DNA from: Crossiella sp. SN42
Lineage (GTDB): Bacteria > Actinomycetota > Actinomycetes > Mycobacteriales > Pseudonocardiaceae
Direction: 5' to 3'
Assembly (NCBI RefSeq): GCF_023897065.1
Contig: NZ_JAMHIV010000001.1
Location: 186,001 to 250,000 of the forward strand
DNA length: 64,000 bases
This document shows positions 29,000-63,446 of the stretch, one piece after another. The notes under the pieces are model-generated. The model worked only from the letters and a program-made list of their open reading frames with translations, had not been told where the DNA came from and did no database searches. A program made the position numbers and the translations under genes. Each line of letters opens with the position of its first letter. The first letter of the stretch is position 1.

Positions 29000-30037
29000 G
29001 TGGTTGATGTGACGGTCCAAGGTGAGATGCGGCCGACGCTGGAGGATGTCGCCGCCTACGCCGGGGTTTCCCGCTCGACCGCGTCCAGGGCGCTCAACGC
29101 CGAGGTCTACGTCAGCCCCGATGCCCGGGAGAAGGTCTTGGTCGCGGCCCAGGCGCTCGGCTACTCCCCCAACCAGGCGGCCCGTTCGCTGGTCACCCGC
29201 CGCACCAACGCCATCGCCCTGGTCCTGTCCGAGCCGGAGCCCAAGGTGCTGGAGGACCCCTACTTCGCCGAGATCGTCCGCGGCGCCTTCCGCGAGCTGT
29301 CCGGGCGCGGCAGCCAGATGCTGATGATGCTGGTGGACAGCAGGGAGGACGTGCCGGGCACGTTGCGCTTCCTGGAGGGCGGCCACGTCGACGGCGCCCT
29401 GGTCTTCGCCTCCCACCAGGCCGACCCCCTGCCCACCGCGCTGCGCCTGCTCCGGTTGCCGATGGTCTTCGGCGGCGGCAGGCCGGGCAGTGGCACCCGG
29501 GGCCTGCACCTGGTCGACTTCGACAACGAGGGCGGCGCGAAGCTCGCCGTGGAACACCTGCTGTCCTTGGGGCGCAAGCGGATCGGCACCGTGGCCGGTC
29601 CGCAGGACCAGCGCGCGGCAATCGACCGCTGCGCGGGCTGGCGCACCACCCTCGGCCTGGACGACCGCGCCACCGCCCGCCTGTCCGAGGAAGGCGACTT
29701 CAGCTCCGAGAGCGGTGAGCGGGCGATGGCCCGGTTGCTGAAACGGGTGCCCAGGCTGGACGCGGTGTTCGTGGCCAACGACCCGATGGCCGCTGGCGCG
29801 TTGCGCGCGCTGCGGGCCGCGGGGCGGCGGGTGCCGCAGGACGTTGCCGTGGTGGGCTTCGACGACCACCGCGGGCTGGCCGAGTCCACCCAGCCACCGC
29901 TGACCACCATTCACCAGGACCCGCGCGGGCAGGTCCGGCAGATGGTGGACACCCTGTTCCAGCTCATCGACGGAGCGGGCCCGCCGCCAGGCAGGCAGGT
30001 GCTCCCGGTGAGCCTGGTCCGCCGGGACTCCGCGTGA
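29000..30037 (+). CDS. LacI-family repressor, CebR-like
   Basis: A 345-aa repressor. The N-terminal LacI HTH is PTLEDVAAYAGVSRSTASRALN, with the hinge GYSPNQAARSLVTRRTNAIALV, and a periplasmic-binding-like sugar sensor follows (FDDHRGLAESTQPPLTTIHQDP). The sequence style and the near-perfect TGGGAGCGCTCCCA site upstream match CebR, the cello-oligosaccharide repressor of Streptomyces. The divergent GH9 and GH44 cellulase genes 8 kb away have perfect copies of the site. GTG 29000 is the likely start; GTG 29009 is possible. Confidence 0.87.
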   Translation: MVDVTVQGEMRPTLEDVAAYAGVSRSTASRALNAEVYVSPDAREKVLVAAQALGYSPNQAARSLVTRRTNAIALVLSEPEPKVLEDPYFAEIVRGAFRELSGRGSQMLMMLVDSREDVPGTLRFLEGGHVDGALVFASHQADPLPTALRLLRLPMVFGGGRPGSGTRGLHLVDFDNEGGAKLAVEHLLSLGRKRIGTVAGPQDQRAAIDRCAGWRTTLGLDDRATARLSEEGDFSSESGERAMARLLKRVPRLDAVFVANDPMAAGALRALRAAGRRVPQDVAVVGFDDHRGLAESTQPPLTTIHQDPRGQVRQMVDTLFQLIDGAGPPPGRQVLPVSLVRRDSA

Positions 30038-30048
30038 CCCGGTGAGCC

Positions 30049-32460: not shown

Positions 32461-32488
32461 ATCGCCTCCTTGCGGCAGACCGGATGAC

Positions 32489-34420
32489 CTAGGACGGGAT
32501 GAGCTGCCACTGCTGCTGCGGCGCGTGGTGGTAGTCCCACTGGTCGAGGACCGTGCCGTCCGCGGTCGAGGCGTCGGGGACGTTGAGCACGCGCTGGCTG
32601 AGCCGGTTGGTGAGGATGAAGAAACCCTCGCCGACCGGGGTGACCGCCCAGTGCTGCTGGTGCAGGCTCGCGCCACCCCGGATGTTCATCTTTCCGCCGT
32701 TGCCCCGCGCCAGGCCACCGACCTCCAGCAGCTTTCCGCTGTTCTGGTCACGGATCCTGAAGTACCCGTCCCCGGTGGAGATGAAGGTCCACTTCTGCCC
32801 CGCGTTGTCCTGGCGGCTCCACTGCTGCACCGGGGTGCCGTCGGCCGTGGCGGAGTTCTGCACGTGCAGCACCTTGCCGCTGTGCCGGGCCTGGATGCGG
32901 TAGACGGTGTGCGCGAGCGGGAAGCGGGAGACCAGCCGGGGGCGCGCGAGCCGCCCGCCGAGGTGGATCCCGCTGATGTTGACGTAGCCACCGGTGGCGG
33001 CCGTGACGTGGATGCGCACGAAGCCCACGTCGCGGCCGGCCCACTCGGCGAGCTTGAACTGCTGGCCAGCCGCCCAGTCGACCGCGGCCACCTTGGTGAA
33101 GTCGACCCCGTTGGTACTGGTGGAGATCGTGGCCGCGGTGATGTCGCCGTTGGTGTTCGTGCTGTCCCGGTGCCACTGCTTGGGCAGGTACTCCAGCGTG
33201 GACACGTTGCTCCACACGCCGCCCAGGTCGATCGTGATCGTCTGCGGCAGGGTCCGGCCGCCACCCCAGGTGGACCAGCAGCTCTCGAACCGGACGTCGC
33301 TGCGGTTGTCGATCGCGTGGTAGGCGAACTCGCCGCTGTTGAAGGACGAGGCGTAGGCCGTTACCGGGTTCACCGGCCACTCCACGCGCAAGGGCTGGGC
33401 AGGCAGTGGCGGGCGCGAGTGGTTCGGGCTCCAGGCCGCGCCGACCTCGGCGAGCCGGGTGACGATGTTGGCGTCGAGCCTGCCGTCGCGGTTGGGCGGG
33501 CAGTTGAGCAGGTACGAGGTGTACTTCGGTTCCAGGTCCTTGAGGTCGGCCAGGATCGCGTCGCGGGCGCGCGGGTTCGTGGTGGGGGTGCTGGGATGCC
33601 AGAACCAGCCGTTGCTGATCGTCTCGCCCTGGACGCCCGCGTAGGTGTTCCCCTCGGGGGCCCGGACGCCCAGCGGCGCCTCGAAGAAGATCGCGTCGCT
33701 GAGCCAGGGCTGCGACAACCCGCCGATGTCGATGATCACGCAGTTGGGCTGCAAGGACTTCACCAGGTTATGGACCTCCTGGTAGGGGATCTGCTGCTGA
33801 CCCATCTGCCAGGACCAGCCGTCGGTGACCAGCATGTCGATGGCGCCGTAGTTCGTCAGCAGCTCGCGGATCTGGCCGAGCACCACGGTCATGTCGCCCG
33901 GTTCGATGGTCTGCGTCTGGTCGCTGACGTGACCGCCGAGGGCCTGGATGGTGTGGGTGCGGTCCCAGATCGAGTAGTACAGCCCGACCTTCAGTCCCCG
34001 GGCGCGGAACGCGTTCACGTACTGGCGCACCACATCCCGCCGGTAGCCCGAGTACGCCACGTTCTGCTTGCCGAAGGCCGTGGGCCACAGCGCGAACCCG
34101 TCATGGTGCTTCGTGGTCAGCACGCCGTAGCTCATCTTCGCGGCCGCGGCCGCGGCCGCCCACTGTGCACAGTCCACTGAGGACGGTGCGAACAGCGAAG
34201 GGCTCTGGCCACCCGCCGCCCACTCCTCGTCGGTGAAGGTGCCGAGGTTGAAGTGGTTGAACATGCCGAAGCGGAGGTCGACCAGCTTGGCCAGGTTCGT
34301 CCGGGCCTCCGCCGCGGAAGCCCCGAGCGGCTGGCCCACGAGGCCCGGCAGCACCGTCGCGGCGGCCGCGACACCCGTTGCCGCCAGAAAGCCGCGGCGG
34401 GACATTCCTGATGTCGTCAT
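32489..34420 (-). CDS. Secreted GH29 alpha-L-fucosidase with discoidin and ricin lectin domains
   Basis: A 643-aa enzyme with a Tat signal ([19 protein letters not shown]), a GH29 barrel (about 45-330), an F5/8C-type carbohydrate-binding module (about 340-495) and a C-terminal RICIN beta-trefoil (about 510-643, repeated Q-x-W motifs). In the GH29 barrel [13 protein letters not shown] is present and the likely nucleophile is D200 in [12 protein letters not shown]29 enzymes retain configuration and remove alpha-L-fucose. ATG 34420 has GGGAG. A promoter fit is TTTCAG (34553-34548) with TAGCCT (34530-34525), spacing 17. It is first in the operon with the GH95 gene. Confidence 0.88.
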
Positions 34421-34524
34421 CAACGCTCCCACTGTTCGCGCCGCAACACCGCGGCCTTCGATCGGGACATCACCGTCCCGGCCCGGTTTCACCACAGGCG
34501 AGCCGCATGATCAGTGACAGCAGA

Positions 34525-35598: not shown

Positions 35599-37701
<2,103 letters not shown>

Positions 37702-37717
37702 TTACAGTCCCCCTTAT

Positions 37718-37733
37718 CTGGGAGCGCTCCCAG
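37718..37733. promoter_or_regulatory. CebR-type operator of the GH44 gene
   Basis: A second perfect copy of CTGGGAGCGCTCCCAG, 33 bases before the GH44 start codon and 155 bp (centre to centre) from the GH9 operator. Both cellulase genes would therefore be silenced together until cello-oligosaccharides appear. Confidence 0.9.
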
Positions 37734-37766
37734 TCCAGTTCCGGCAACGATGCTGCGAGGGCCTTC

Positions 37767-39692
37767 ATGCGACCAAGAAGTCTGGTGCGAGGCGGATCAG
37801 CCCTCGCGGTGCTCACGCTCACCGCGATGCTCACCGGCCACGCGGCCACCAGCGCCGCGGCGGCGGCCACGGGGCCCGCGCTGTCGGTGGACGTCTCCGC
37901 CGCCCGGCACACGATCAGCCCCGACATCTACGGCCTCAACGGCGGCGATCCGGCGTTCAACGCCGAGATCGGCCAGTCGGTGGCGCGCTGGGGCGGCAAC
38001 GCGAGCAGCCGCTACAACTTCAAGAACCGCACCTACAACACCGGCAGTGACTGGTTCTTCGAGAACATCGTCGCCGACCAGGAACGCTCCGTCGAGGGCA
38101 TGGTCAAGTCCAACCTCGACCGCGGCATCAAGCCGGTCGTCACCGTGCCCCTGATCGGCTGGGTGGCCAAGGACTCGCCGTCGGTGCACCCGTTCAACTG
38201 TGGCTTCCCGGCGACCCGGTTCCCGCAGCAGGACAAGTTCGACGAGTGGGACCCCAACTGCGGCAACGGCCAGCTGGACCAGAAGAACCTCACCGGCGTG
38301 CCCGCCGACACCTCGATCAAGGCGGACGCGGCCTTCGCCGGGGAGATGGTGGCGCACCTGGCGAACAGGTTCGGCCCGGCGGCCCGGGGTGGCGTGCCGA
38401 TCTACCAGCTCGACAACGAGCCGGTGCTGTGGGCCCACACGCACCGCGACGTGCACCCCGAGCCGGTCTCCTACGACGAGCTGGGTGGCAAGGGCACCGC
38501 GACCGCCGCGGCGATCAAGGCCGCCGACCCCAGCGCCAAGGTGCTCGGCCCGTCCGGCTGGGGGTACTGCGAGTGGGTCGCCTCCGGGGTGGACGGCTGC
38601 GCACCGGGCGCCGACTCGGCCGCGCACGGCGGGCTCAACCTCTCCCAGTGGTACCTGAAGAACATGAAGGACTACAGCGATGCCCATGGCGGGCAACGCT
38701 TCCTGGACTACTTCGACCAGCACTTCTACCCGCAGATCAGCGGTGACAAGGACCCCGCGGCCAACGCGTTGCGGCTGCGGTCCACCCGGTCGTTGTGGGA
38801 CCCGACCTACGTCGAGGAGAACTGGATCGGCCCCGGCGGGGTCAACGCGCCGCCGCTGCAGTTCATCCGCACGATGAAGTCGTGGATCGCCCAGCACAAC
38901 CCCGGCACCAAGACCGCGATCACCGAGTACAACTGGGGCGCGCTGGACCACATCAACGGCGCGCTGGCGCAAGCCGACGTCCTGGGCATCTTCGGACGCG
39001 AGGGCCTCGACCTGGCCACCATGTGGGGCGAGCCCAAGCCGACCGATCCGGGCGCCTACGCGTTCCGGATGTACCGCAACTACGACGGCGCGGGCAGCCG
39101 CTTCGGTGACGTCAGCGTGTCGGCGACCGCCGCCGACCAGGGCAGGCTGGCGGTCTACGCGGCGCAGCGCTCCGCCGACAAGGCGGTGACCGTGATGGTC
39201 GTCAACAAGACCGGCGGCGAGCTGACCTCGCCGCTGTCGGTGGCCGGGTTCGACAGCGCCGGTGCGGCGCAGCGGTTCACCTACGGCGAGGCCAACCTGG
39301 GCGGCATCGTGCGCGGCGACGACCTCCAGGTGAGCAACGGTCAGGTCAACGCGACCTACCCGGCGAACTCCATCACGCTGCTGGTCCTGCCCGCGGCCGG
39401 GTGCTCGGCCAGCCTGCACGTCAACGGCGACTGGGGCACCGGGCACGCCGCGACGGTGACCGTCACCAACGACCGCCGCACGGCGATGACCGGGTGGCGG
39501 GTCAGCTGGACCTGGCCCGGCAACCAGCAGGTCACCAAGTCCTGGAACACCACCCTGAAGCAGGATGCCGCCGCCGTGGTCGCCACAGACGCCGGGTGGA
39601 ACGGCTCGATCGGTGCCGGCGGCAGCACCACCTTCGGGTTCCAGGCCACCGGAAGGGCAGCGCCACCGACACTGACCTGTACCCCAGCCTGA
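37767..39692 (+). CDS. Secreted GH44 endoglucanase/xyloglucanase with CBM2
   Basis: A 641-aa enzyme with a signal peptide (about 1-33), a GH44 barrel plus beta-sandwich (about 36-535) and a C-terminal CBM2 (about 540-635). The barrel shows YGLNGGDPAFN at its start, the acid/base E218 in YQLDNEPVLW and the nucleophile E387 in AITEYNWG. The CBM2 carries conserved tryptophans in WGTGHAATVTV and TGWRVSWTWPG. GH44 enzymes cut carboxymethylcellulose, beta-glucan and xyloglucan. It is divergent from the GH9 gene, with a perfect CebR-type operator 33 bases upstream and a strong terminator after the stop. Confidence 0.92.
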   Translation: MRPRSLVRGGSALAVLTLTAMLTGHAATSAAAAATGPALSVDVSAARHTISPDIYGLNGGDPAFNAEIGQSVARWGGNASSRYNFKNRTYNTGSDWFFENIVADQERSVEGMVKSNLDRGIKPVVTVPLIGWVAKDSPSVHPFNCGFPATRFPQQDKFDEWDPNCGNGQLDQKNLTGVPADTSIKADAAFAGEMVAHLANRFGPAARGGVPIYQLDNEPVLWAHTHRDVHPEPVSYDELGGKGTATAAAIKAADPSAKVLGPSGWGYCEWVASGVDGCAPGADSAAHGGLNLSQWYLKNMKDYSDAHGGQRFLDYFDQHFYPQISGDKDPAANALRLRSTRSLWDPTYVEENWIGPGGVNAPPLQFIRTMKSWIAQHNPGTKTAITEYNWGALDHINGALAQADVLGIFGREGLDLATMWGEPKPTDPGAYAFRMYRNYDGAGSRFGDVSVSATAADQGRLAVYAAQRSADKAVTVMVVNKTGGELTSPLSVAGFDSAGAAQRFTYGEANLGGIVRGDDLQVSNGQVNATYPANSITLLVLPAAGCSASLHVNGDWGTGHAATVTVTNDRRTAMTGWRVSWTWPGNQQVTKSWNTTLKQDAAAVVATDAGWNGSIGAGGSTTFGFQATGRAAPPTLTCTPA

Positions 39693-49533: not shown

Positions 49534-51417
49534 ATGCGGTTGACTCATCGTGCTTCCCGCGCATTACTGGTGGGGGCGCTGGCGGTCGGGGTCTGCGGGG
49601 TGCCCCTGTCCGCCGCCGCGGCGGCGGGTTCTCCGTTGCCCGTCAGCGGGGTCAGGGCGCTCTCCGACGACGGCAACGTCGCCGCCAACACCCTCGACCG
49701 CGATCCGGCCACCCGCTGGTCCGGTCAGGGTGACGGGGTGTGGATCGAGTACGACCTCGGCTCACCCCAGACCGTGGGATCGGTGTCACTGGCCTGGCAC
49801 AAGGGCGACACCCGGCAGGACACCTTCGACGTGCAGCTGTCCCAGGACGCCGCGTCCTGGACCACCGTGCTGGCGCGCAAGACCAGCAGTGGCAGCACGG
49901 TCGCGCCGCAGGTCTACGACTTCGCCGACGCCTCGGCCCGGTACCTGCGCGTGGTCGGGCACGGCAACACGGTCAACAACTGGACCAGCATCACCGAGAC
50001 CGTGATCAACGGGGCCGATGGCGGCGGCGGGGGCGAGTGCCGCTACCCGGCCGACGTGCTGGACCTGAGCAACTGGTACATCGGCCTGCCGATCGGCGCG
50101 AGTGAGAAGCCGAAGAACGTCGAGCAGCCGGAGCTGGCCACCTACGCCATCGACCCGTGGTTCCGCGCCACCGAGGACTGCGCCGCGGTCCAGTTCCGGG
50201 CCGCGGTCAACGGGGTCACCACCAGCGGCTCGAACTACCCGCGCTCCGAGCTGCGCGAGATGAACGGCCGGAACAAGGCCAGCTGGTCCTCGACCTCGGG
50301 CACGCACGAGATGGTGATCGACCAGGCCATCACCGCGGCGCCGAAGGGCCGGCCGAACGTGGTCGCCGGGCAGATCCACGACGGCTCCGACGACGTCTCG
50401 GTCTTCCGGCTCGAAGGCAGCAAGCTCTACATCACCGATGGCGACAGCAAGCACACGCTGATCACCGACAGCTACCGGCTGGGCACCAGGTTCCAGGCCA
50501 GGTTCGTGGTCAGCGACGGCAAGATCAAGGCCTATTACAACGGTGAGCTGAAGGCCACGCTGTCGAAGAAGTTCAGCGGCGGCTACTTCAAGGCAGGCGC
50601 CTACACCCAGGCCAACTGCGGCAACGCCTCGCCCTGCGACAGCGGCAACTACGGCGAGGTGAAGATCTACGGCCTGCGCGTCAACCACGGCCAGGACCAG
50701 CCCGCCGACCAGACCCAGGCCGCGGTGCGCAACAACTGGGGCACCCCGCTGCCCATCTCCGACGAGTTCGACTACACCGGCCCGGTGGACCCGGCGAAGT
50801 GGGCGGTGCCCTCCGGCAACGTCGGCGGCACCCCGGGCTGCTGGGAGGGCCACGCCAAGAACGGCCGCCGCTGCGCCAAGAACAGCACGGTGGCCGACGG
50901 CATGATGACCATGCGCGGTGAGGCCAACGGCGACACCGGCTGGCTGCGGCAGAAGCGGGACGAGCAGTACGGCAAGTGGGAGATCCGCTCCCGCTCGCGC
51001 AACATCGGCCCCAGCGGCGGGCTCTACCACCCGCTGCACCTGATCTGGCCCACCGCGGGCAACCGGCTGGAGAACGGCGAGTACGACTGGGTGGAGTACT
51101 CGAACCCGGACGCCCAGTGCCTGACCGCGTTCCTGCACTACCCGAAGAGCCCGACCGACAAGAAGGAACGCAAGGACCTGTGCCCGCTGGACATGACCCA
51201 GTGGCACAACTTCGCCTTCGAGTGGACCTCGCAGGCGCTGGTCGGCTACGTGGACGGGGTCGAGTGGTTCCGCTACTCCGGCGGCGCGGGCGCCGATCGG
51301 GGCGACATCCAGGCGATGCCCTCCGGGCACCTGAACATCCAGCTGGACAACTTCACCGGCGCCGGTGGCCTGCGTCCCGCGGTGTTCGAGGTGGACTGGG
51401 TGCGGGTGTACCAGTGA
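49534..51417 (+). CDS. Secreted F5/8C-PL7-GH16 multidomain polysaccharidase
   Basis: A 627-aa exported enzyme, start ATG 49534 with GAGG. Its parts in order are a signal peptide (1-31), an F5/8C or CBM32-like module (about 35-165), a Gly linker, a PL7 alginate-lyase domain (about 170-390) and a GH16-like jelly roll (about 400-627). The PL7 domain shows YPRSELREM, GQIHDGSDD and YFKAGAYTQ, which hold the Arg, His and Tyr of the active site. The GH16-like part has E516-Y-D518-W-V-E521, matching the ExDxxE catalytic signature. It could cut uronate-containing gels by both lyase and hydrolase chemistry. Confidence 0.85.
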   Translation: MRLTHRASRALLVGALAVGVCGVPLSAAAAAGSPLPVSGVRALSDDGNVAANTLDRDPATRWSGQGDGVWIEYDLGSPQTVGSVSLAWHKGDTRQDTFDVQLSQDAASWTTVLARKTSSGSTVAPQVYDFADASARYLRVVGHGNTVNNWTSITETVINGADGGGGGECRYPADVLDLSNWYIGLPIGASEKPKNVEQPELATYAIDPWFRATEDCAAVQFRAAVNGVTTSGSNYPRSELREMNGRNKASWSSTSGTHEMVIDQAITAAPKGRPNVVAGQIHDGSDDVSVFRLEGSKLYITDGDSKHTLITDSYRLGTRFQARFVVSDGKIKAYYNGELKATLSKKFSGGYFKAGAYTQANCGNASPCDSGNYGEVKIYGLRVNHGQDQPADQTQAAVRNNWGTPLPISDEFDYTGPVDPAKWAVPSGNVGGTPGCWEGHAKNGRRCAKNSTVADGMMTMRGEANGDTGWLRQKRDEQYGKWEIRSRSRNIGPSGGLYHPLHLIWPTAGNRLENGEYDWVEYSNPDAQCLTAFLHYPKSPTDKKERKDLCPLDMTQWHNFAFEWTSQALVGYVDGVEWFRYSGGAGADRGDIQAMPSGHLNIQLDNFTGAGGLRPAVFEVDWVRVYQ

Positions 51418-51420
51418 CGC

Positions 51421-53172
51421 CTACTTGGGCTCACGGCCCGCGCGGCGCACCACCTCCTTGACGTAGTCCAGGGTGGGCCTGCCCGCATCCAGCAGGACCC
51501 GTTCGTTGTTGAAGTTCCAGGCGAACACGCGGTGCCGGGCGAGATCGGCGATCGACTGCGGGGACAGCAGTTCCCGCATGTCCCGGTCGACGATCTCGCT
51601 CGGCGTCCTGCTTTTGCCGTAGGAGGCCACCATGACCGGGCCGTAGGCGCTGAGCACGCGCACCGACTGCCGGATGTCGTCCACGTTGCCGTCGGGCTCG
51701 GTGGCCAGCACCGACTGGAAGTCCGAAGCCCGCAGCACCTCGGCGAAGTGGCCGAACATGGACCGGCCGCCACCGGTCCTCGGCTCGTCCCGCCCGCCCT
51801 GCCAGGCGTCCCAGCCCATCGCGACCTTCGCGTTGGGCGCTTCCTGCTTGAAGATCTCCTTGACCTCCAGGTACCGGTCCATCAGCGCCCGGTAGTACGC
51901 CGTGGTCTGCGGATCGACGGCGTAGGCGCCGTCCACGCAGGCGAACTTGTTGACCTCCTGGAACATCGTGACGTAGAGCGGCGGCCCGTTGGCCGCGCCG
52001 GCGAAGGCGCGGGCCAGCGCGCGCATGTGCCGGGGGAAGTCGGCGGAGAGCGGGTGCATCCGGCCGCAGGCGGGGCCGTACTTGGTCTGCACCGGCAGCT
52101 CGGGATCGTCGGTCTCCCAGACGGAGACCTTCAGGTGCAGCGCGTAGCCCTGGGCGTAGGCGTCGGCCACCAGGGTCTCCCGCCAGGTCGCCAGCCGGTT
52201 CAGGTCGCCGGGCTTGTGGTAGTTCGTGGTGAGCATCCGGACCGGGGTCTCCCGGACCAGCTCGGTGGCCAGCACCGAGTTGAGCTGGTCGCCGACGCCG
52301 AACAGCAACGAGCCCGAACCGTCGGCGGGCTGCACGGCGGTGCCCGGCGCCGGGGTCGCCTTCCCGGGCTCCGGTCCGGCCGAGGTGAGCGCGAAGGCCG
52401 TGCCCAGCACCGCGACCACGCCGAGCGCGGTGGCCGCCAGCGCGCGCCGGGAGATCCGCCGCGCGTCGTAGGTCCGCAGCTGCTGCGCGGCCTTGTCCGC
52501 GGCAGGCCTGCGGGCCGGGTCCTCCTCGGTCAGCGCGGCCAGCACGCCGGTCAGCCGGTTGTCCGCCTGCGGGTGGCCCTCGACCGCCGCGGACAGCGCC
52601 ACGCCGAGGGCGTAGACGTCGGAGGCCGGGGTGGCGCGCAGGCCCGCGAGCACCTCGGGGGCCAGGTAGCCGGGGGTGCCTGCGCTGCGCGCGGTCCCGG
52701 TCAGCGTGACGTGGTGCCAGCTGGCGATGCCGAGGTCGGTCAGCTTCGCGGTGCCGTCCTCGGCCACCAGGATGTTGGCCGGTTTGATGTCCCGGTGCAC
52801 CATGCCCTTGGCGTGCATGGCGGAGAGGGCGGTGGCGATCTGCGCGCCGATCCGGGCCACCCGGTCCGGCGCCAGCGGGCCCTCTTCCTGGCAGAGCTCG
52901 GCCAGGCTGCGCGAGGGCAGGTACTCCATCACCAGCCAGCGCCGCTCGTCCTCGGTGACCACGTCGAAGACCGAGATCACGTTGGGGTGGTGCACACCCG
53001 CGCCGATCCTGGCCTCCCGGCGCGTCTCCTCACTGTCGCCGGTGCTGGTCAGCTTGACCGCCACCACCCGGCGTAGTTCCAGGTCGGTGGCTCGCCACAC
53101 TTGGCCCATGCCACCCGCTCCGACCGGTTCCTCGAGCTGGTACCGGCCGGCGATGATGTCCCCGATACGCAC
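51421..53172 (-). CDS. Ser/Thr protein kinase with extracellular glycosidase-like domain
   Basis: A 583-aa receptor-type kinase. The cytoplasmic kinase domain is at about residues 10-225 (P-loop GAGGMGQV, K40, HRDIKPAN, DLG in place of DFG, APE). A transmembrane helix follows at about 243-262 and a roughly 310-residue extracellular domain after it. That domain (KVSVWETDDPELPVQ, LYVTMFQEVNKFACVDG, KVAMGWDAWQGG) looks like a TIM-barrel glycosidase. It lacks the usual PASTA repeats. It is surrounded by polysaccharide-degrading genes, so sugar sensing is plausible. Whether the outer domain is catalytic is unknown. Confidence 0.85.
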   Translation of the reverse strand: MRIGDIIAGRYQLEEPVGAGGMGQVWRATDLELRRVVAVKLTSTGDSEETRREARIGAGVHHPNVISVFDVVTEDERRWLVMEYLPSRSLAELCQEEGPLAPDRVARIGAQIATALSAMHAKGMVHRDIKPANILVAEDGTAKLTDLGIASWHHVTLTGTARSAGTPGYLAPEVLAGLRATPASDVYALGVALSAAVEGHPQADNRLTGVLAALTEEDPARRPAADKAAQQLRTYDARRISRRALAATALGVVAVLGTAFALTSAGPEPGKATPAPGTAVQPADGSGSLLFGVGDQLNSVLATELVRETPVRMLTTNYHKPGDLNRLATWRETLVADAYAQGYALHLKVSVWETDDPELPVQTKYGPACGRMHPLSADFPRHMRALARAFAGAANGPPLYVTMFQEVNKFACVDGAYAVDPQTTAYYRALMDRYLEVKEIFKQEAPNAKVAMGWDAWQGGRDEPRTGGGRSMFGHFAEVLRASDFQSVLATEPDGNVDDIRQSVRVLSAYGPVMVASYGKSRTPSEIVDRDMRELLSPQSIADLARHRVFAWNFNNERVLLDAGRPTLDYVKEVVRRAGREPK

Positions 53173-56044: not shown

Positions 56045-57889
56045 TCATCCTCTCGGCTTGAGCCAGGCCGCCGGGATGACCTGCTGGCCGAGGTACGGAC
56101 TGGCCCACAACAGTTTCATCGCCGCGATGCCGCTGTTCTGCTTGTGCTCCAAGGTGATCTGGTGCGCGGTACCGGCGGTCAGGTGGATCCGGCCGAGGCG
56201 GACGTAGGAGTTGGGCACGGTCTGCTTGTAGCTCTTCTCGTACCTGGTCTGCGCGCCGATCAGCTCGGTGCCGTTGACGGTCAGGCGGACCGCGTCCGGG
56301 GAGACCGCGATGAACTCGTAGGTCGCGGTGGTGGGCACGGTGATGGTGCCGCTCCAGCGGGCGGAGTGGGTCCCTGCCGGGATCTCCGGCGCGGGTGAGC
56401 CGAGCAGCCGCCAGTCGTAGTTGACCGACGGGTCGGTCCGGGTGACCGCGGGTGCGCCGTGCAGGTCGGGGTTGGTCCAGAACTCGGCGGTCAGGCCGGT
56501 GCCGTCGCCGGGCTGGCTGGTCGCGGGCTGTTCGATGGTGAGCTCGACGACCGTGGCGATGGGGTTGGTCTGCTTGCCGGTTGGCGTGATCCGCAGGCGG
56601 TCGCCGGTGTCGGTCACGGTGACCGGCTGGGCGCTGCCGAGGACCCTGGCGCTGGTGACCGAGAACGGGGCGGCCTTGGTCAGTTCGAGCGCGCTGCCCG
56701 CGGCGGGCCAGTCCCGGACGGCGGCGTAGAGCAGGTTCTCCGCGCGGGTGACCGTGCCCCAGGCCGGTCTGGCGACCAGGCCGGTGCCGCCCGCGCCGTA
56801 GATGGCCCTGCTGTGGCCCTTGCCCTGGATCCACTGGCCCACCTCGGTGAGCCGGGCGGCCGCGGCGGCCGGGATGCGGCCGTTGGCGTCGGGGCCGACG
56901 TTGAGCAGGTAGTTGCCGCCCTGGCTGGTCGCGGTGAGCAGGTGCCGGGTCAGCTCGCTGGCGGGCTTGAAGTCGGTGTCGTTCTTCGAGTAGCCCCAGG
57001 TTCCGTTGATGGACATGCAGGTCTCGGCGGGGACGCCGGTGACCGGCTGGTCCGGCAGGGTGTTCTCCGGGGTGGTGAAGTCACCGTCCAAATAGGACTG
57101 GGTGCCGCGGGCCCGGTTGTTGATGAGCAGCTTGGGGTCGAGCTCACGCAGGTAGGGTTCGATGACCAGGCCGTCCTGTTCGGTCCAGCCGGAGTTGCTG
57201 CGGCCCGAGCCGTCCAGCCAGAGCATCTTGGGCCGGTAGCCGGTGACGAGTTCCTTGAGCTGGGCCTTCATTCGCTCCAGGTACTTCGGCCGGGTGGCCG
57301 GATCGGCGTAGTCGGGGTCGTGCAGGTCCCAGGCGCCGTAGTACAGGGCGAGGTCCAGGCCGTGTTTTTCGGTGGCCTGCTTGAGTTCGGCGATCAGGTC
57401 GCGGGTGCGGTCGAAGGCGGACATCTCGCGCAGGTTGAAGGTGTTCACCTTGGTGGGCCACATCGCGTAGCCGTCGTGGTGCTTGGCGGTGAAGACCACG
57501 TAGCGCTGTCCGGCCGCCTTGGCCAGCCGCACGATCGCGTCCGCGTCGAACCCGGCCGGGTTGAACTTGCGGGCGTGTTCCTCGTAGACCTCGGTGGACA
57601 GGCCGCACTTGTTCCAGATGTGCTCGGCGTGGTCGGGTTCGCAGGTGCTGCCGTCGGGGAAGGTGTGCACGCCCTCGAACTGGGTGTAGGCGCCCAGGTG
57701 CAGGAACAGGCCGAAGCGGTCGGTCCGCCACCACCGGGCGCGCAGCGAGGTGAACGGGTCGTCGACCACGAAGTTGGTGCCTGGCCCCGGTTGCGCGGCC
57801 GGGCGGGCCTGTGCGGGGGCGCTGAGCACGGTGAGGACGGCGGCGAGGGCGAGCGCGGCGGCCGACCACCGGTGCGGGCTCCTGCTCAT
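56045..57889 (-). CDS. Secreted GH29 alpha-L-fucosidase with PA14 module
   Basis: A 614-aa exported enzyme with a signal peptide (about 1-29), a GH29 barrel (about 45-340) and a C-terminal PA14-like beta-barrel (about 470-614). The barrel shows RFGLFLHLGAY near the substrate pocket, FTAKHHDGYAMWP and the nucleophile D226 in MLWLDGSG. PA14 domains bind glycans. It differs from the GH29 at 32489, which has lectin rather than PA14 modules. ATG 57889 overlaps the MFS stop, so it is cotranslated with the transporter in an operon that starts with a sulfatase. Confidence 0.88.
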   Translation of the reverse strand: MSRSPHRWSAAALALAAVLTVLSAPAQARPAAQPGPGTNFVVDDPFTSLRARWWRTDRFGLFLHLGAYTQFEGVHTFPDGSTCEPDHAEHIWNKCGLSTEVYEEHARKFNPAGFDADAIVRLAKAAGQRYVVFTAKHHDGYAMWPTKVNTFNLREMSAFDRTRDLIAELKQATEKHGLDLALYYGAWDLHDPDYADPATRPKYLERMKAQLKELVTGYRPKMLWLDGSGRSNSGWTEQDGLVIEPYLRELDPKLLINNRARGTQSYLDGDFTTPENTLPDQPVTGVPAETCMSINGTWGYSKNDTDFKPASELTRHLLTATSQGGNYLLNVGPDANGRIPAAAAARLTEVGQWIQGKGHSRAIYGAGGTGLVARPAWGTVTRAENLLYAAVRDWPAAGSALELTKAAPFSVTSARVLGSAQPVTVTDTGDRLRITPTGKQTNPIATVVELTIEQPATSQPGDGTGLTAEFWTNPDLHGAPAVTRTDPSVNYDWRLLGSPAPEIPAGTHSARWSGTITVPTTATYEFIAVSPDAVRLTVNGTELIGAQTRYEKSYKQTVPNSYVRLGRIHLTAGTAHQITLEHKQNSGIAAMKLLWASPYLGQQVIPAAWLKPRG

Positions 57890-59133
57890 GGTTGTCTCCT
57901 GGTCAGTTCGGCCTCGATGGACTCAAGGCTGCGGTTGCGGGTTTCCGGGATCTTGAGCAGCAGGCCGAGGATCAGGCCCGCGGTCATCACGGCGGCCAGC
58001 AGCAGGGTCATGTCCCGCCAGCCGAGCGCGGCCAGCAGCGGCGGGAAGGCCAGCACCGCGAGGAAGCCGCCCGCCTTGCCGCTGGCCGAGGACAGGCTCT
58101 GCGCGGTGCCGCGCACCAGGGTCGGGAACGGCTCCACCGACAGCGCGAACAGCGCCATCGCCAGCACTTGCAGCGGCAGCGCGGACACCATGATCATGAC
58201 GAACATGGTGGTGGCCTGGCCGTCGCTGATCGCGGCCAGCGCGAAAGTCAGCACGGTGGGGATCGCCCAGCACCACAGGATGATCGGGCGCCGGCCGATC
58301 CGGTCCAGGTAGCGCACCCCGGCCAGCGCGGCCAGCGTGTTGACCACGTTCACCGCGGTGCTCAGCCACAATGAGACGGTCACCCCGGACAGGCCGATCT
58401 CGTTGAGAAACGTTGGCGTGTAGAGGTTGTAGCCCGCGCCGCGCACGGTGACCAGGAACCAGAACAGGCAGGAGAACACCAGCGCGGCCCGGATGCCCGG
58501 CGACAGTAAGGTGCGCAGCGGCCGGGTGGCGGCGGCGGGTCGCTGGGCGGCGACCCAGGAGGTGCTCTCCGGGATGCGCCGCCGCATGATCAGCACCACC
58601 ACGGCGAGCACGATCGCGCTGCCCAGCATCCACCGCCAGGAGTCCGCGCCGAACAAGGCGTACAGGCCGATCCCGGCCAGTCCGGAGGCCGCGGCCCCGG
58701 CGAACCAGAACACCTGCATCAGCCCGGTCAGCGCGCCCCGCCGGTGCGCGGGCGCGGACTCGGCGATCAGCGTGGTGCTGACCGGCAGGTCCGCGCCGAT
58801 GCCGAGGCCGACGATCGCGCGACCGGCGATGAGCATCAACGGGGTGACCGCCAGCGCGGAGACCAGCGAGCCGATCACGAACAGCACCAGCACGAAGGTG
58901 AACGCGCCCGCCCGGCCGATCCGGTCGGTGAGCCTGCCGAAGACCAGCGAGCCGGCCACCATGCCGGCGAAGGCGATCGCGCCGACCCAGCCGATCTGCG
59001 CGGCGGAGAGCTGGAGCTCGACCTTGATGAACAGCAGCGCACCCGAGATGATCATCAGGTCGTAGCCGTCCAGGAACGCGCCGAGCAGGGCCACCAGGAT
59101 GGTGTAGTTGCGGCGCGGCGGGTCAGCAGTCAC
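57886..59133 (-). CDS. MFS sugar-type transporter
   Basis: A 415-aa major facilitator, start GTG 59133 with GGAGG, overlapping the sulfatase end by 11 bases. The sugar-porter signature loops are visible: GRLTDRIGRAG, a GADLPVSTTLIAE segment in helix 5, and the C-terminal PETRNRSLESIE, which resembles the PETKG motif of sugar transporters. Twelve helices are predicted. Its position between a sulfatase and a fucosidase gene suggests uptake of fucose or a sulfated fucose-containing sugar. Confidence 0.85.
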   Translation of the reverse strand: MTADPPRRNYTILVALLGAFLDGYDLMIISGALLFIKVELQLSAAQIGWVGAIAFAGMVAGSLVFGRLTDRIGRAGAFTFVLVLFVIGSLVSALAVTPLMLIAGRAIVGLGIGADLPVSTTLIAESAPAHRRGALTGLMQVFWFAGAAASGLAGIGLYALFGADSWRWMLGSAIVLAVVVLIMRRRIPESTSWVAAQRPAAATRPLRTLLSPGIRAALVFSCLFWFLVTVRGAGYNLYTPTFLNEIGLSGVTVSLWLSTAVNVVNTLAALAGVRYLDRIGRRPIILWCWAIPTVLTFALAAISDGQATTMFVMIMVSALPLQVLAMALFALSVEPFPTLVRGTAQSLSSASGKAGGFLAVLAFPPLLAALGWRDMTLLLAAVMTAGLILGLLLKIPETRNRSLESIEAELTRRQP

Positions 59134-60514
59134 GAATGGACCTCCGGTCTTGTTCCACGTCCTCGAACCAGGCGCCGAGTTCCGCTTCCATCCGGACGAC
59201 GAGCGCGGGGTGCCGGGCGGCCAGGTCGTGTTCCTCGCCGGGGTCGGCGAGCAGGTCGAACAGCTGCGGGCGCGGGGGTTCGCCGCAGTCGGGCGGTTCG
59301 GGCAGGGCAGCCTCCAGCGCATGGGGATATCGCTCCGGATGTCGTTTGAGGTCGGCGTCGAGGTCGAGCTCGCTGGCGGGCAGGCCCATCGCGGCAGCCA
59401 GCGCGGGCCGCACGAGCTTCCAGCGCCCGTCCCGCATGGCCGCGTTGCAGTGCCCCAGTGGCCGCAACCGGTTCCACTGCCAGAACCGGGCGGGCTGGTC
59501 GGCCACAGCCTGCCCGCGCAACGAATCGGCGAGGTCGATCCCGTCCAGCCGCACGCCCTCGGGCAGCTGTGCCCCGGCCAGCGCGACCAGGGTCGGGAAC
59601 CAGTCGGTGAAGTGCGCGAACACATCCGACCGCACCCCGCCGGGCAGGCCGTCCGGCCAGCTGAGCAGCAGGGGCACCCGGATACCGCCCTCGTGCACCG
59701 ACTCCTTGGCCCCGGCCAGGCCGCAGTTGTGCCGCCGGGTGGACTCCTCGCCGACGCCGTCGAGCTGCGGGCCGTTGTCGCTGGAGAACAGGAAGATCGT
59801 GTTGTCCGCGAGGCCGAGCGTGCTCAGCTCCTCGCGCAGGGTGGCGATGCCGTGGTCGAGCTGGTGGATCATCGCGTAGATGGTGGCCACCGCTCGGCTG
59901 CGGCCCGGCTGGGTGAACTGCTCGACGAGGGGTTGCGGGGCCTGGAACGGGAAGTGCGGGGCGTTGTAGGCCACGTGCAGGAAGAACGGTTCGCCGCGGT
60001 GGCGGCGCAGGAAGCTGATTGCTTCGGCGGTGATCACGTCGGTGAGGTGCCTGCCGTCAGCGGTGAACGGGACGCCGTTGCGTTCCAGCCGCCACTGCCA
60101 GTAGTCCTGCCAGCCGCCGCGGAAGCCGGTGAACTCGGCGAAACCGCGCCGGTTCGGGTGGTAGCGCTCGTCCAGCGCGCCGTTGTGCCACTTGCCGACC
60201 AGGCCGGTGCGGTAGCCCGCCGCGGCCAGCGAGTCGGCCAGGGTGCGCTCGCGCAGGGCCAGCCGGTCCAGGCCGCGCAGTTCCAGGGTGTCGATCGCGC
60301 CGGTGCGGTGCGGGTACCGACCGGTCAGCAGAGCGGCCCTGGCGGGCGCGCACACCGGGGCGGCCGAGTAGTGCTGGGTGAGCGCGATGCCCTCGGCGCA
60401 CAGCTGGTCCAGCGCGGTGGTGCGGGAGGCGTGGCCGTTGCAGTGGCCGAGGTCGCCGTAACCGAGGTCGTCGGCCAGGACCAGGACGATGTTGGGGCGC
60501 TGCGCTGCGGGCAT
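59123..60514 (-). CDS. Type I formylglycine-dependent sulfatase
   Basis: A 463-aa alkaline-phosphatase-superfamily sulfatase. Metal ligands are in VLADDLGYGDLG, the signature is C55-A-P-A-R59, and FSSDNGPQ and KWHNGALDERYHPNRRGF lie downstream. The CxPxR cysteine must be oxidised to formylglycine to work, and a genuine formylglycine-generating enzyme gene lies nearby at 61780. It removes sulfate esters from sugars or aryl compounds. No signal peptide is evident, so it may act on imported oligosaccharides in the cytosol. It is the first gene of the operon. Confidence 0.92.
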   Translation of the reverse strand: MPAAQRPNIVLVLADDLGYGDLGHCNGHASRTTALDQLCAEGIALTQHYSAAPVCAPARAALLTGRYPHRTGAIDTLELRGLDRLALRERTLADSLAAAGYRTGLVGKWHNGALDERYHPNRRGFAEFTGFRGGWQDYWQWRLERNGVPFTADGRHLTDVITAEAISFLRRHRGEPFFLHVAYNAPHFPFQAPQPLVEQFTQPGRSRAVATIYAMIHQLDHGIATLREELSTLGLADNTIFLFSSDNGPQLDGVGEESTRRHNCGLAGAKESVHEGGIRVPLLLSWPDGLPGGVRSDVFAHFTDWFPTLVALAGAQLPEGVRLDGIDLADSLRGQAVADQPARFWQWNRLRPLGHCNAAMRDGRWKLVRPALAAAMGLPASELDLDADLKRHPERYPHALEAALPEPPDCGEPPRPQLFDLLADPGEEHDLAARHPALVVRMEAELGAWFEDVEQDRRSIRDC

Positions 60515-60568
60515 GGCGGAAGGCTAGGAACAACACCGGGCGGTGGCTACCGGCCCCGTGCTCTGGTT

Positions 60569-60587
60569 CGATAGGTGTCGCCTATGG
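60569..60587. promoter_or_regulatory. LysR-type operator of the sulfatase/FGE divergent promoter
   Basis: CGATAGGTGTCGCCTATGG contains the dyad ATAGG-N5-CCTAT (60571-60585). It lies between the divergent sulfatase and GHL15-FGE genes. The same sequence, with 16 of 19 bases matching, occurs at the start of the LysR gene at 63430. Two further direct copies of ATAGG follow at 60598 and 60619. Confidence 0.75.
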
Positions 60588-60658
60588 ACGGTCGGTGATA
60601 GGCGGCGGCGATCCAACGATAGGAGCCGGTCCGGCCGGGAAAAGTTACCCTCGCCTGC

Positions 60659-61783
60659 ATGTTGAGTCGCCGCACTCTGCTCAAGGCCGGCGCGTTCGCC
60701 CTGGCCTACCCCGGCCCGGCCCTGGCCTCGGCGCACTGGCGGACCGTGCCGGTGTACGGCCACCTCGGCAAGCGCACCGACTTCACCGCCGAGGACATCA
60801 GCTTCCTGGTCCGGCGGTACTCGGTGATCACCATCGAGAAGACCCAGGGCGCCAGCGTGCGCCAGGCCGCGGAACAGGCCAGCGCTCGTGCGCTGAACCA
60901 GCTCAAACAGCGGGAGCCGGCCCCGAAGGTCTACTACTACTGGAACAGCGCGGTGGCCTACCCGGAACACTATGCGGCACTGGCGGATCTGCCCCCGGCC
61001 TGGACCCTGAAGCAGACCGACGGACAGCCCTGGCAGCCGATCGCGAACAATGCGGACGCACTGGCCTACGACTTGTCCAGAAAGGACGTTCGGGACTGGT
61101 GGGTCGAGCAAGCGGTGACCCAGGTCAAGCGGGGCTATGACGGGATCTTCGTCGACGGCGTCAAGCGGTTCGCCATGGGCACGACCCGGCTGGCGAAGAT
61201 CGTCGGCGCGGAGAAGCAGCAGGCGGTCACCGCTGGCATCGGCAAGCTGGTCCCGGCCCTGCGCGCGGCCCTGCCCGCCGGAAAAGTGCTGCTGTGCAAC
61301 GGGGTCGAGCACCAGCCGAACGCCTGGCCGGACAGCGGGAAGAGCTTCCTCACGCACGCCGACGCCACCATGCTGGAGCACTTCGGCATCACCGGCCCCA
61401 AGCCCAACACGGCCGCGGAGATGGCCGCTCAGCTCGACCTTCTGTCCACAGTGGACTCCCAGTACGGGAAGTTCATCGCCTTCTGCGGCTGGCCGGACTC
61501 CGGCCGGTCGGCACCGCTGCCGTTGCAGGCGGGGATCACCTTCCCGCTGGCCTGTTTCCTGGTCGCCGCCGGTGCGCACAGCTACTTCCGCTACGGCAGC
61601 GGGTGGCGGGCCGAGGACGGTCCACTGGAGCCGTTCCCGGAGCTGGAGCGACCGCTCGGCCCGCCACAGGGACCCGCCGTGCGCGACGGCTACACCTACA
61701 CCCGGACCTTCGAGCACGCGCACGTCACGGTGGATCTGGCCGCGGTGACCGGCCGGATCGCCTGGACGCAGCCGCCGAGATGA
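60659..61783 (+). CDS. Secreted GHL15-like putative glycoside hydrolase
   Basis: A 374-aa protein with a Tat signal (LSRRTLLKAGAFALAYPGPALA) and a TIM-barrel-like domain resembling the hypothetical glycosidase family GHL15. Features are YYYWNSAVAYPEHYAAL, YDGIFVDGVKRFAMG (an Asp at a barrel strand end) and MLEHFGITGPKPN (a Glu candidate for catalysis). No biochemical activity is established for the family. Its stop overlaps the FGE start (ATGA). Its role in a sulfated-polysaccharide locus fits an outer glycosidase. Confidence 0.75.
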   Translation: MLSRRTLLKAGAFALAYPGPALASAHWRTVPVYGHLGKRTDFTAEDISFLVRRYSVITIEKTQGASVRQAAEQASARALNQLKQREPAPKVYYYWNSAVAYPEHYAALADLPPAWTLKQTDGQPWQPIANNADALAYDLSRKDVRDWWVEQAVTQVKRGYDGIFVDGVKRFAMGTTRLAKIVGAEKQQAVTAGIGKLVPALRAALPAGKVLLCNGVEHQPNAWPDSGKSFLTHADATMLEHFGITGPKPNTAAEMAAQLDLLSTVDSQYGKFIAFCGWPDSGRSAPLPLQAGITFPLACFLVAAGAHSYFRYGSGWRAEDGPLEPFPELERPLGPPQGPAVRDGYTYTRTFEHAHVTVDLAAVTGRIAWTQPPR

Positions 61784-62553
61784 CCATGGTCGAGCTGCCC
61801 GGCGGCCTGTTCTGGATGGGCGCTGAGGACGAAAACAGCAACCCGGTCCGCCAGGTCCGCCTGTCCCCCTTCGCCATCGACGCGCATCCGGTCACCAACG
61901 ACCAGTACGCCGAGTTCGCCGCCGCCACCGGCCATGTCACCGAGGCCGAACACTTCGGCTGGTCCTACGTCTTCGCCGGGTTCCTGCCGCACGCCGAGAC
62001 TCCGCGGGTCGCGGACGCCCCGTGGTGGCTCGCGGTCGAGCGGGCGTCCTGGCGCGCACCCGAGGGACCGGGCAGCGGACTGGCCGGGCGCGGCGACCAC
62101 CCGGTGGTGCACGTGTCCTGGCGGGACGCCGGGGCCTACGCCCGCTGGGCCGGCAAACGCCTGCCCACCGAGGCCGAATGGGAGTACGCGGCCCGCGGCG
62201 GACTCGACCGCCGCCGCTACCCGTGGGGCGATGAGCTGACCCCGGACGGCGTGCACCGCTGCAACATCTGGCAGGGCCGGTTCCCGGAGCACAACACCGC
62301 CGAGGACGGCTACCGCGGCACCTCCCCCGTGTTCGCCTTTCCGCCCAACGGTTTTGGGCTCTACGACACGGTCGGCAACGTGTGGGAGTGGTGCGCGGAC
62401 CAGTGGGCGGACGGCCGGGTCCTGCGCGGCGGCTCGCACCTGTGCCACCGCAGCTACTGCAACCGCTACCGGGTGGCCGCGCGCACCCGCAACACCCCGG
62501 ACAGCAGCTCCGGCCACCTCGGTTTCCGCTGCGCCCGCGACCGGGTCAGCTGA
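61780..62553 (+). CDS. Formylglycine-generating enzyme (sulfatase activator)
   Basis: A 257-aa FGE/SUMF1-family enzyme. The decisive motif is LCHRSYCNRYRVAARTRNT, with the active-site copper-binding cysteines C222 and C227 and the neighbouring serine intact. These are lost in the many FGE-fold proteins of other function. It also has PGGLFWMGAEDENSNP, LPTEAEWEYAARGG and GNVWEWCADQW. It oxidises the Cys of CxPxR in sulfatases to formylglycine, using oxygen and a copper ion. The sulfatase at 59123 has CAPAR and is the natural client. It is in one operon with the GHL15-like gene; its end overlaps the LysR gene end by 8 bases. Confidence 0.92.
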   Translation: MTMVELPGGLFWMGAEDENSNPVRQVRLSPFAIDAHPVTNDQYAEFAAATGHVTEAEHFGWSYVFAGFLPHAETPRVADAPWWLAVERASWRAPEGPGSGLAGRGDHPVVHVSWRDAGAYARWAGKRLPTEAEWEYAARGGLDRRRYPWGDELTPDGVHRCNIWQGRFPEHNTAEDGYRGTSPVFAFPPNGFGLYDTVGNVWEWCADQWADGRVLRGGSHLCHRSYCNRYRVAARTRNTPDSSSGHLGFRCARDRVS

Positions 62554-63430
62554 ACCGGGGCAGGCAGGCCAGGAAGGCGTCCACCACCGGGGTGTCGTGG
62601 TGCCAGTGCCGGTAGGCCAGGTGCAGCTGCGCGGTGATGTCGCTGGGGCGCAACGGAACCACCGTGGTGCCCTCCCGGCGCAGGGTGGCGTTGGACAGCG
62701 CCTGCACGCACACGCCCACCCCGGCGGCGACCAGTGCGAGCTGGGCCACCAGGCTGTCGCCGAGGCCCTCGATGGCCGGGGTGAACCCGTGCTGGTGGCA
62801 GGCGTCGGTGACCAGGTCGTGGAAGGACGGGCCGAGGTGGCGGGGCCAGCTGACGAAGGTCTCCTCGGCCAGCTCGGCCAGCCGCAGCTCGGCACGTCCG
62901 GCGAAGCGGTGGTCCGACGGCAGGTAGACCAGGAACGGCTCGGTGAGCAGCTGCCGGGTGACGATCGCGCGGTCCCCGGCGACCTGGCGCAGCACCGCGA
63001 TGTCCAGGGTGCCGTCCAGCAAACCGCGTTCCTGCGAGGCGCTGTCGCTGAACTGGCGCAGCTCCACGGTCACCTTGTCGTTGGCCTGCCGCAGCCGCCG
63101 GATGACGCCGGGCAGCGGGCCGTTGAGCCCGGCGCCCAGTGATCCGATGACCAGACGACCCAGTCGCCCCGCCTTCAGGTCGTGCACCGCGTCCACCGCG
63201 CGCTCAGCCTCGGCCAGCGTGCGGTGCGCGCCGCGCAGCAGCAGCTCGCCCGCCTCGGTGAGGGTGACGTGCCTGCTGGTCCGGTGCACCAGCGTGGTGG
63301 CCAGCTCGGTCTCCAGCTGTTGCAACTGCTGGCTCAGCGAGGGCTGGGCGATGCCGAGCCGGGCCGCCGCCCGGCCGAAGTGCAGCTCCTCGGCCAGCAC
63401 CACGAAGGACCGCAACTGACGAAATTCCAT
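62546..63430 (-). CDS. LysR-family regulator
   Basis: A 294-aa regulator. The N-terminal LysR HTH is RQLRSFVVLAEELHFGRAAARLG and SLSQQLQQLE, followed by the substrate-binding domain (LGRLVIGSLGAGLNGPLP, LLDGTLDIAVL, VAAGVGVCVQAL). It converges on the FGE gene. Its start codon lies inside a palindrome that repeats at the sulfatase/GHL15 divergent promoter. It therefore probably controls the whole sulfatase/FGE locus and itself. The effector is unknown; fucose or a sulfated sugar is a guess. Confidence 0.87.
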   Translation of the reverse strand: MEFRQLRSFVVLAEELHFGRAAARLGIAQPSLSQQLQQLETELATTLVHRTSRHVTLTEAGELLLRGAHRTLAEAERAVDAVHDLKAGRLGRLVIGSLGAGLNGPLPGVIRRLRQANDKVTVELRQFSDSASQERGLLDGTLDIAVLRQVAGDRAIVTRQLLTEPFLVYLPSDHRFAGRAELRLAELAEETFVSWPRHLGPSFHDLVTDACHQHGFTPAIEGLGDSLVAQLALVAAGVGVCVQALSNATLRREGTTVVPLRPSDITAQLHLAYRHWHHDTPVVDAFLACLPRFS

Positions 63431-63446
63431 AGGGAGCACCTATCGG
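63428..63446. promoter_or_regulatory. LysR-type operator overlapping the LysR start
   Basis: On the minus strand CGATAGGTGCTCCCTATGG contains ATAGG-N5-CCTAT (63443-63429) and overlaps the ATG of the LysR gene. It matches the site at 60569-60587 at 16 of 19 positions, with only the three central bases differing. Confidence 0.75.

Follow-up and report, generated by a model that had tools for sequence, protein, structure and literature searches.

The window analysed here, a 64,000-nucleotide stretch of Crossiella sp. SN42 (contig NZ_JAMHIV010000001.1, positions 186,001 to 250,000), contains a six-gene locus whose GHL15-like glycosidase is, by sequence and predicted fold, a member of CAZy glycoside hydrolase (GH) family 168, the endo-α-L-fucanases. 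The genes around it encode an S1-type sulfatase, a formylglycine-generating enzyme (FGE), a GH29 α-L-fucosidase with a PA14 domain, a transporter of the major facilitator superfamily (MFS) and a LysR-type regulator. It is fairly probable that the locus is a LysR-controlled catabolic set for a sulfated, α-L-fucose-containing polymer.

The glycosidase scores 1.1e-30 against Pfam GHL15 and is the sole GHL15 match in the host genome. A PDB sequence search with this protein returns ten matches at E up to 10, the best at 5.3e-48. Seven of them (9nhf, 9jom, 9jos, 8ya6, 9jp3, 9joc, 9jof) are labelled GH168 or Fun168 in their titles or in passages of PMC12210190 and PMC11943901; the remaining three (8rg5, 8rg3, 9f9v) carry no family label, and the tree places 8rg5 and 9f9v within the GH168 rows. 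When the AlphaFold model (pLDDT 85.1, pTM 0.85) is used as a Foldseek query, ranks 1-17 are chains of the same PDB proteins (TMq 0.77-0.83), and GH191 follows at 0.50. The protein thus combines the sequence similarity and TIM-barrel fold of CAZy GH168 with its catalytic Asp nucleophile and Glu acid/base: D166 and E240, invariant across GH168 alignments, align with the nucleophile/acid-base pair D167/E237 of MeGH168 given in a passage of PMC12210190, and the equivalent FunA residues D206/E264 are described as essential by mutation in a passage of PMC7401878. Endo-α-L-fucanase activity is predicted from the family. GH187 was first considered as the CAZy family for GHL15 and was dropped since the papers gave GH168. 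A preliminary description of this DNA, made from the sequence without database searches, had named a GHL15-like putative glycosidase, an assignment that PDB matches, tree, fold and catalytic acids now sharpen to GH168. Its further suggestion, that the GHL15 member could be a new fucan-active enzyme, divides: because GHL15 here is GH168, the fucan reading gains support and appears better founded than could be seen at that stage, yet GHL15/GH168 has already been described as a fucanase family, so that a fucan-active member is not new as a kind.

The sulfatase (Pfam Sulfatase 2.2e-63) has both marks of the S1 family, PF00884 and the C-x-P-x-R signature (CAPAR, at C55), and is the only PF00884 protein of the host genome. 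Its catalytic domain starts at residue 6 of the longest frame (RPNIVLVLADD), without a signal peptide. The FGE (Pfam FGE-sulfatase 2.1e-81), by eye also without a signal peptide, carries the C-x4-C pair C222 and C227 in the motif CHRSYC, and its best PDB matches are FGEs (5nxl 2e-104, 6s07 2.9e-104), which bears out the earlier call of a genuine FGE with both active-site cysteines. Among the three PF03781 proteins of the host genome this one alone has the Cys pair. The only sulfatase and the only Cys-pair FGE of the genome therefore sit together, which is counted as new here; with the GH168 identity, this supports the earlier view of a locus of sulfated-fucan type that brings its own sulfatase activator. 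The pairing as such recurs and is not unique to the host, because in another actinomycete (G308, locus L134, a 5 kb contig) a 40-44% identical sulfatase adjoins a 48% identical FGE. Around the sulfatases found in three relatives from the genus (34-36% identity), neither FGE nor GH29 gives a match; a weak second PF00884 match was seen in G001.

The fucosidase matches the GH29 profile (Pfam Alpha_L_fucos 1.1e-73, with PA14 at 1.1e-16; PDB match 6gn6, 1e-53) and has its nucleophile Asp, D226, in a WLD motif and a candidate acid/base, E289 (by eye; conserved in two PDB alignments). The transporter matches Pfam Sugar_tr (5.6e-54) and falls below cut-off for all 25 NCBIfam models among the matches listed (25 of 40 matched). 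By eye, the GH168 protein begins with a leader containing SRRTLLK, which we take to be a Tat-like motif, and the GH29 protein with one that we take to be Sec-like. Since both hydrolases have leaders and the sulfatase has no export signal, the polymer would be cut outside the cell, imported and desulfated inside. The preliminary description had all parts to free, desulfate and import fucose-containing sugars together. The parts are indeed present; desulfation before import does not fit a sulfatase without signal peptide, and sugar import by the MFS protein is not backed by the NCBIfam models listed.

The regulator (Pfam LysR_substrate 2.1e-37, HTH_1 9.8e-21) belongs with the sulfatase, because in two genomes of another actinomycete family (G148, G221) a LysR ortholog of 53-55% identity adjoins an orthologous sulfatase of 57-59% identity. 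In both, this LysR is the genome's best match to ours, the next reaching 36-39%. Sulfatase relatives of 53-59% identity occur in 3 of 394 genomes of the class, a search that scored at most four candidates per genome and may have missed closer ones; in the third such genome (G213) the best LysR (38%) is located elsewhere. The G148 and G221 modules share with our locus the side-by-side LysR and sulfatase and differ from it in that LysR is divergent from the sulfatase, further sulfatases follow, and there is no GH168, GH29 or FGE match.

A T-N11-A palindrome is the hallmark of a LysR box. The perfect palindrome ATAGG-N5-CCTAT, with this spacing, occurs twice at the locus, once in the stretch that separates the divergent operons and once on the lysR start codon, that is, at the target and at the regulator's own promoter, and CATAGGNNNCACCTATCG is common to both sites. 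Because the first site (60571-60585) supplied the pattern, the second site is the test: at up to one mismatch the window holds one further match, the one on the lysR start, against 0.09 expected, and none of 100 shuffles holds two or more. The 9.72 Mb genome contains three exact copies, two of them at the locus; at the same places the second strain has an exact palindrome and another with a single mismatch, and copies number 0, 1 and 0 in three genus relatives that lack the locus. LysR may bind both candidate operators and regulate itself from its own start codon. The third exact copy, also present in the second genome, lies just upstream of an isopropylmalate/tartrate dehydrogenase-like frame (by eye); a LysR-like frame is found some 1.6 kb away.

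The sequence itself shows which genes are present, their families and catalytic residues, the leaders (by eye), the palindromes, the conservation of the locus in the second genome and the LysR-sulfatase coupling in another family. These suggest a scheme in which substrate, step order, LysR effector, LysR binding and transport substrate are proposed. The Tat-exported GH168 endo-fucanase would cut the polymer outside the cell, and the Sec-exported GH29-PA14 fucosidase would take off terminal fucose. The MFS permease would then import sulfated mono- or short oligosaccharides, from which the cytosolic S1 sulfatase would strip sulfate after the co-encoded FGE has converted its Cys55 to formylglycine. 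LysR would switch on both operons from the palindrome in the divergent promoter and control itself from the copy that covers the start of its own gene.

In other phyla, 49 GH168 loci were found, and tblastn with the locus proteins at 1e-6 places an S1 sulfatase near 39 of them, GH29 near 37 and FGE near 12; these are raw counts rather than enrichments over random windows, and several loci are cut by contig ends, which counts against the fucan reading. The preliminary description held that its interpretation would be refuted if GHL15 homologues consistently lay away from sulfatases. For GH168 they do not, as these counts indicate; for other actinomycete GHL15 proteins they do. PF14885 (GHL15) matches occur in 14 of the 394 class genomes, 12 above cut-off. 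Twelve regions were retrieved: at 1e-4 the locus proteins match the one from the same species and none of the 11 outside it, and two sub-cut-off places give none at 1e-8. Actinomycete GHL15 at large thus stands apart from such sulfatases, and GH168 does not. Within the genus PF14885 is found in 2 of 5 genomes, both of the same species, and across the order a strong GH168 match is found in 1 of 397 genomes, the host, with partial matches of 20-33 bits in seven more. A single-protein GH168 scan of genome contigs gives no match; an alignment scan of GTDB contigs gives the 49 loci, none titled as actinomycete, and may miss distant members because it used two peptide patterns only. A passage of PMC7401878 lists 97 FunA homologs over seven bacterial phyla, Actinobacteria being absent from that list, and no title among the papers listed on GH168, fucanase, fucoidan, fucoidanase or sulfatase in actinobacteria or actinomycetes concerns such an enzyme. 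Actinomycetes that break down fucoidan are not unprecedented, because a fucoidanase produced by a Streptomyces is mentioned in PMC11943901, in a passage that gives no gene or family. What is new is the host group, since no other actinomycete species searched gave a strong GH168 match, and the arrangement is, as proposed earlier, unusual in an actinomycete.

Several observations weigh against the fucan reading. An alignment with 47 further GH168 rows (43 from loci and 4 from PDB chains, not independent because some chains nearly duplicate loci; L051, L068, L084 and L087 left out as short, L088 for want of a usable match, and L052) has 44 columns identical in all 47. The protein keeps 35 of these, including the catalytic pair, and changes nine, in both strains, at positions 206, 217, 252, 253, 276, 314, 316, 326 and 345; basic and aromatic residues are lost in R->E (217), K->C (276), K->A (252) and W->S (314). 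A further change, Q->R at 170, affects a column fixed in 46 of 47 rows. Positions 217 and 170 correspond by alignment to Arg216 and Gln171 of MeGH168, placed at the +1 subsite in a passage of PMC12210190. Specificity residues fixed in other members are thus not all retained; they do not define the family, which rests on sequence similarity. Because nine family-fixed residues are replaced, specificity is probably altered, and action on ordinary marine fucan is uncertain. The enzyme may be unable to cut known fucans; a passage of PMC7401878 reports that, of 13 FunA homologs obtained in soluble form, 8 showed no activity on the fucans used there. The nearest solved relatives of the sulfatase in the PDB search are named carrageenan and N-acetylgalactosamine sulfatases, and its eight best matches include 9hh3 (S1-19) and 9fo1 (S1_16), so that S1_19 and S1_16 are candidate SulfAtlas subfamilies. 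As for the palindrome, a reversed control pattern has 0, 2, 1, 0 and 1 copies in five genus genomes, so that about one copy per genome is the chance level, and the third exact copy lies elsewhere in the genome (L145 6065; G000 C13:183064).

Many of these features would also suit a locus for some other sulfated or non-sulfated polymer (for example one from plants, fungi, animals or bacteria that contains fucose or galactose), with a re-purposed GH168 and a sulfatase acting on a galactose-type sulfate, an alternative that we consider rather unlikely. The nine replacements and the best sulfatase matches, of carrageenan 4S type by title, agree with it, as do the long tree stem of this GH168 (2.87 changes per column, with a long-branch warning) and its five best relatives by E-value: one cyanobacterium, three Lentisphaerae metagenome-assembled genomes (MAGs) and one Planctomycetota MAG, with no marine Bacteroidota. 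The retention of GH29 beside GH168 speaks against it. So do seven residues that a passage of PMC10778895 calls highly conserved in GH168 active sites, distant members included; taking D194 of that paper as its catalytic Asp, our own mapping finds them identical here (E60, K61, Y94, N96, D166, N214, E240). No donor is drawn from the tree join with Elainella, given the long-branch warning and an unsettled bootstrap. Between the two strains the GH168 protein is 86% identical, with a ratio of nonsynonymous to synonymous change (dN/dS) of 0.32; four further genes of the locus were measured and range from 0.17 to 0.25. The gene is under purifying selection with faster change, which is not attributed to selection because dS is raised too (0.25 against 0.07-0.14).

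A sulfur-scavenging locus, in which LysR and sulfatase form a sulfate-ester module for sulfate shortage and the glycosidases merely expose sulfated sugars, is improbable. It would explain why the LysR-sulfatase pair is kept in two genomes of another family apart from the other genes, and the 16-20 kb regions around all three 53-59% sulfatase relatives give no match to GH168, GH29 or FGE, which also tells against the fucan reading. Three of the six genes, however, encode two glycosidases and a Sugar_tr permease, and the other-family pair itself adjoins more sulfatase matches and ABC permease-like frames (by eye), also suggestive of sugar use. That the genes are chance neighbours with separate roles, as their restriction to one species might suggest, is highly improbable given the same order in a second genome, overlapping genes, a palindrome common to both promoters, and the only sulfatase and Cys-pair FGE in one place.

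The six frames are intact, occupy 56045-63439 of the window, score far above the Pfam cut-offs and match the content and places previously described (Table 1). In the leftward operon sulfatase, MFS and GH29-PA14 genes follow one another with an overlap at each junction, the MFS gene starting with GTG over the sulfatase stop; in the rightward one GH168 and FGE overlap by ATGA. The lysR gene is convergent with the FGE gene. A second genome, labelled as the same species, carries the complete set with its order unchanged, at 86-99% identity except for a 76-residue MFS piece (83%). For five of the six genes dN/dS between strains is 0.17-0.32; the MFS gene, which reads frameshifted in the second genome (L028 11847-13093), was left out. 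A sigma-70-type promoter scan found none, and terminator-like sites number 2 against 2.3 expected. A plasmid search gave zero matches for carriage of the locus, and 112 pattern matches in viral contigs included no relatives. The host genome measures 9.72 Mb in 82 contigs at 71% GC, and a dehydrogenase neighbouring the locus has its best plasmid matches in Arthrobacter and Rhodococcus; all this fits an actinomycete host.

Table 1. Features of the locus (window coordinates; gene names are family assignments)
Feature	Position	Strand	Basis
GH29 α-L-fucosidase with C-terminal PA14	56045..57889	-	Pfam, PDB search, motif
MFS transporter, Sugar_tr/MFS_1	57886..59133	-	Pfam; NCBIfam
S1-type sulfatase, C55 (CAPAR)	59123..60514	-	Pfam, PDB search, motif
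Candidate LysR operator ATAGGTGTCGCCTAT, perfect arms, T-N11-A	60571..60585	.	Divergent sulfatase/GH168 promoter region
GH168-family glycoside hydrolase (Pfam GHL15), D166/E240	60659..61783	+	Pfam, PDB, tree, predicted fold
Formylglycine-generating enzyme, C222/C227	61780..62553	+	Pfam, PDB search, motif
LysR-type regulator	62546..63430	-	Pfam; longest frame to 63439, probable ATG 63430
Second candidate operator ATAGGGAGCACCTAT over lysR start codon	63429..63443	.	Palindrome search

The known GH168 endo-fucanases (FunA/Fun168A, Fun168E, Fun168D, FWf5 and, by structure, MeGH168) have the same fold and catalytic Asp and Glu and likewise keep company with GH29 and S1 sulfatases. Ours differs in sequence (31-42% identity to 27 aligned loci of other phyla), in the nine fixed columns, +1 subsite included, in its probable actinomycete host and in its Tat-like leader. 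Endo-fucanase, fucosidase and S1 sulfatase also occur together, in some cases with an FGE nearby, in the fucoidan utilisation loci of Bacteroidota, Planctomycetota and Verrucomicrobiota. Unlike them, the present locus has one sulfatase, without export signal, no SusC/SusD among its six genes, MFS import, LysR control and an FGE in the fucanase operon.

Other polysaccharide genes occur in the window. A secreted-looking protein (49534-51417, +), 4.6 kb from the fucan-type locus and 94% identical in the second genome, joins a carbohydrate-binding module (CBM) 32-like F5/8C domain, a PL7 alginate lyase (PDB 1uai 1.6e-87) and a C-terminal GH16 domain with a weak laminarinase match (3iln 1.5e-4). 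Alginate and perhaps β-1,3-glucan activities may thus lie in one chain, and alginate, laminarin and fucan could all be targets of the region. At 51421-53172 (-) a Ser/Thr protein kinase ends in about 290 residues without Pfam or PDB match (0.01), their glycosidase-like barrel being an impression only. A second fucosidase locus (29000-34495) has a LacI regulator adjoining GH95 and GH29-F5/8C-ricin-lectin frames, and at 35599-39692 lie divergent GH9-CBM3 and GH44-CBM2 cellulase-type genes.

Taken together, the observations of the preliminary description are confirmed and its interpretation stands in part, the sulfated-fucan locus with its own FGE being supported and the novelty of GHL15 and the order of desulfation not. 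What is new is the group to which the host belongs, the change at specificity residues, a design with a single sulfatase that has no export signal, and the LysR circuit that is predicted. Tentatively, and with somewhat less confidence than in the catabolic reading itself, an actinomycete may have built the pathway from a native LysR-sulfatase module, an FGE and an acquired, re-tooled GH168, with MFS import and cytosolic desulfation; this GH168 would found a new specificity branch with a changed +1 subsite, and its target would be a fucose polymer, perhaps non-marine, that is not yet known as a substrate. If this is so, the GH168 fucanase family would extend into a bacterial group in which no other strong match was met, and the locus would be a minimal six-gene system with one sulfatase depending on one FGE. 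The palindrome predicts a regulon, and the natural swaps at family-fixed residues would allow direct tests of GH168 specificity and may lead to a sulfated fucose polymer that has so far gone unrecognised.

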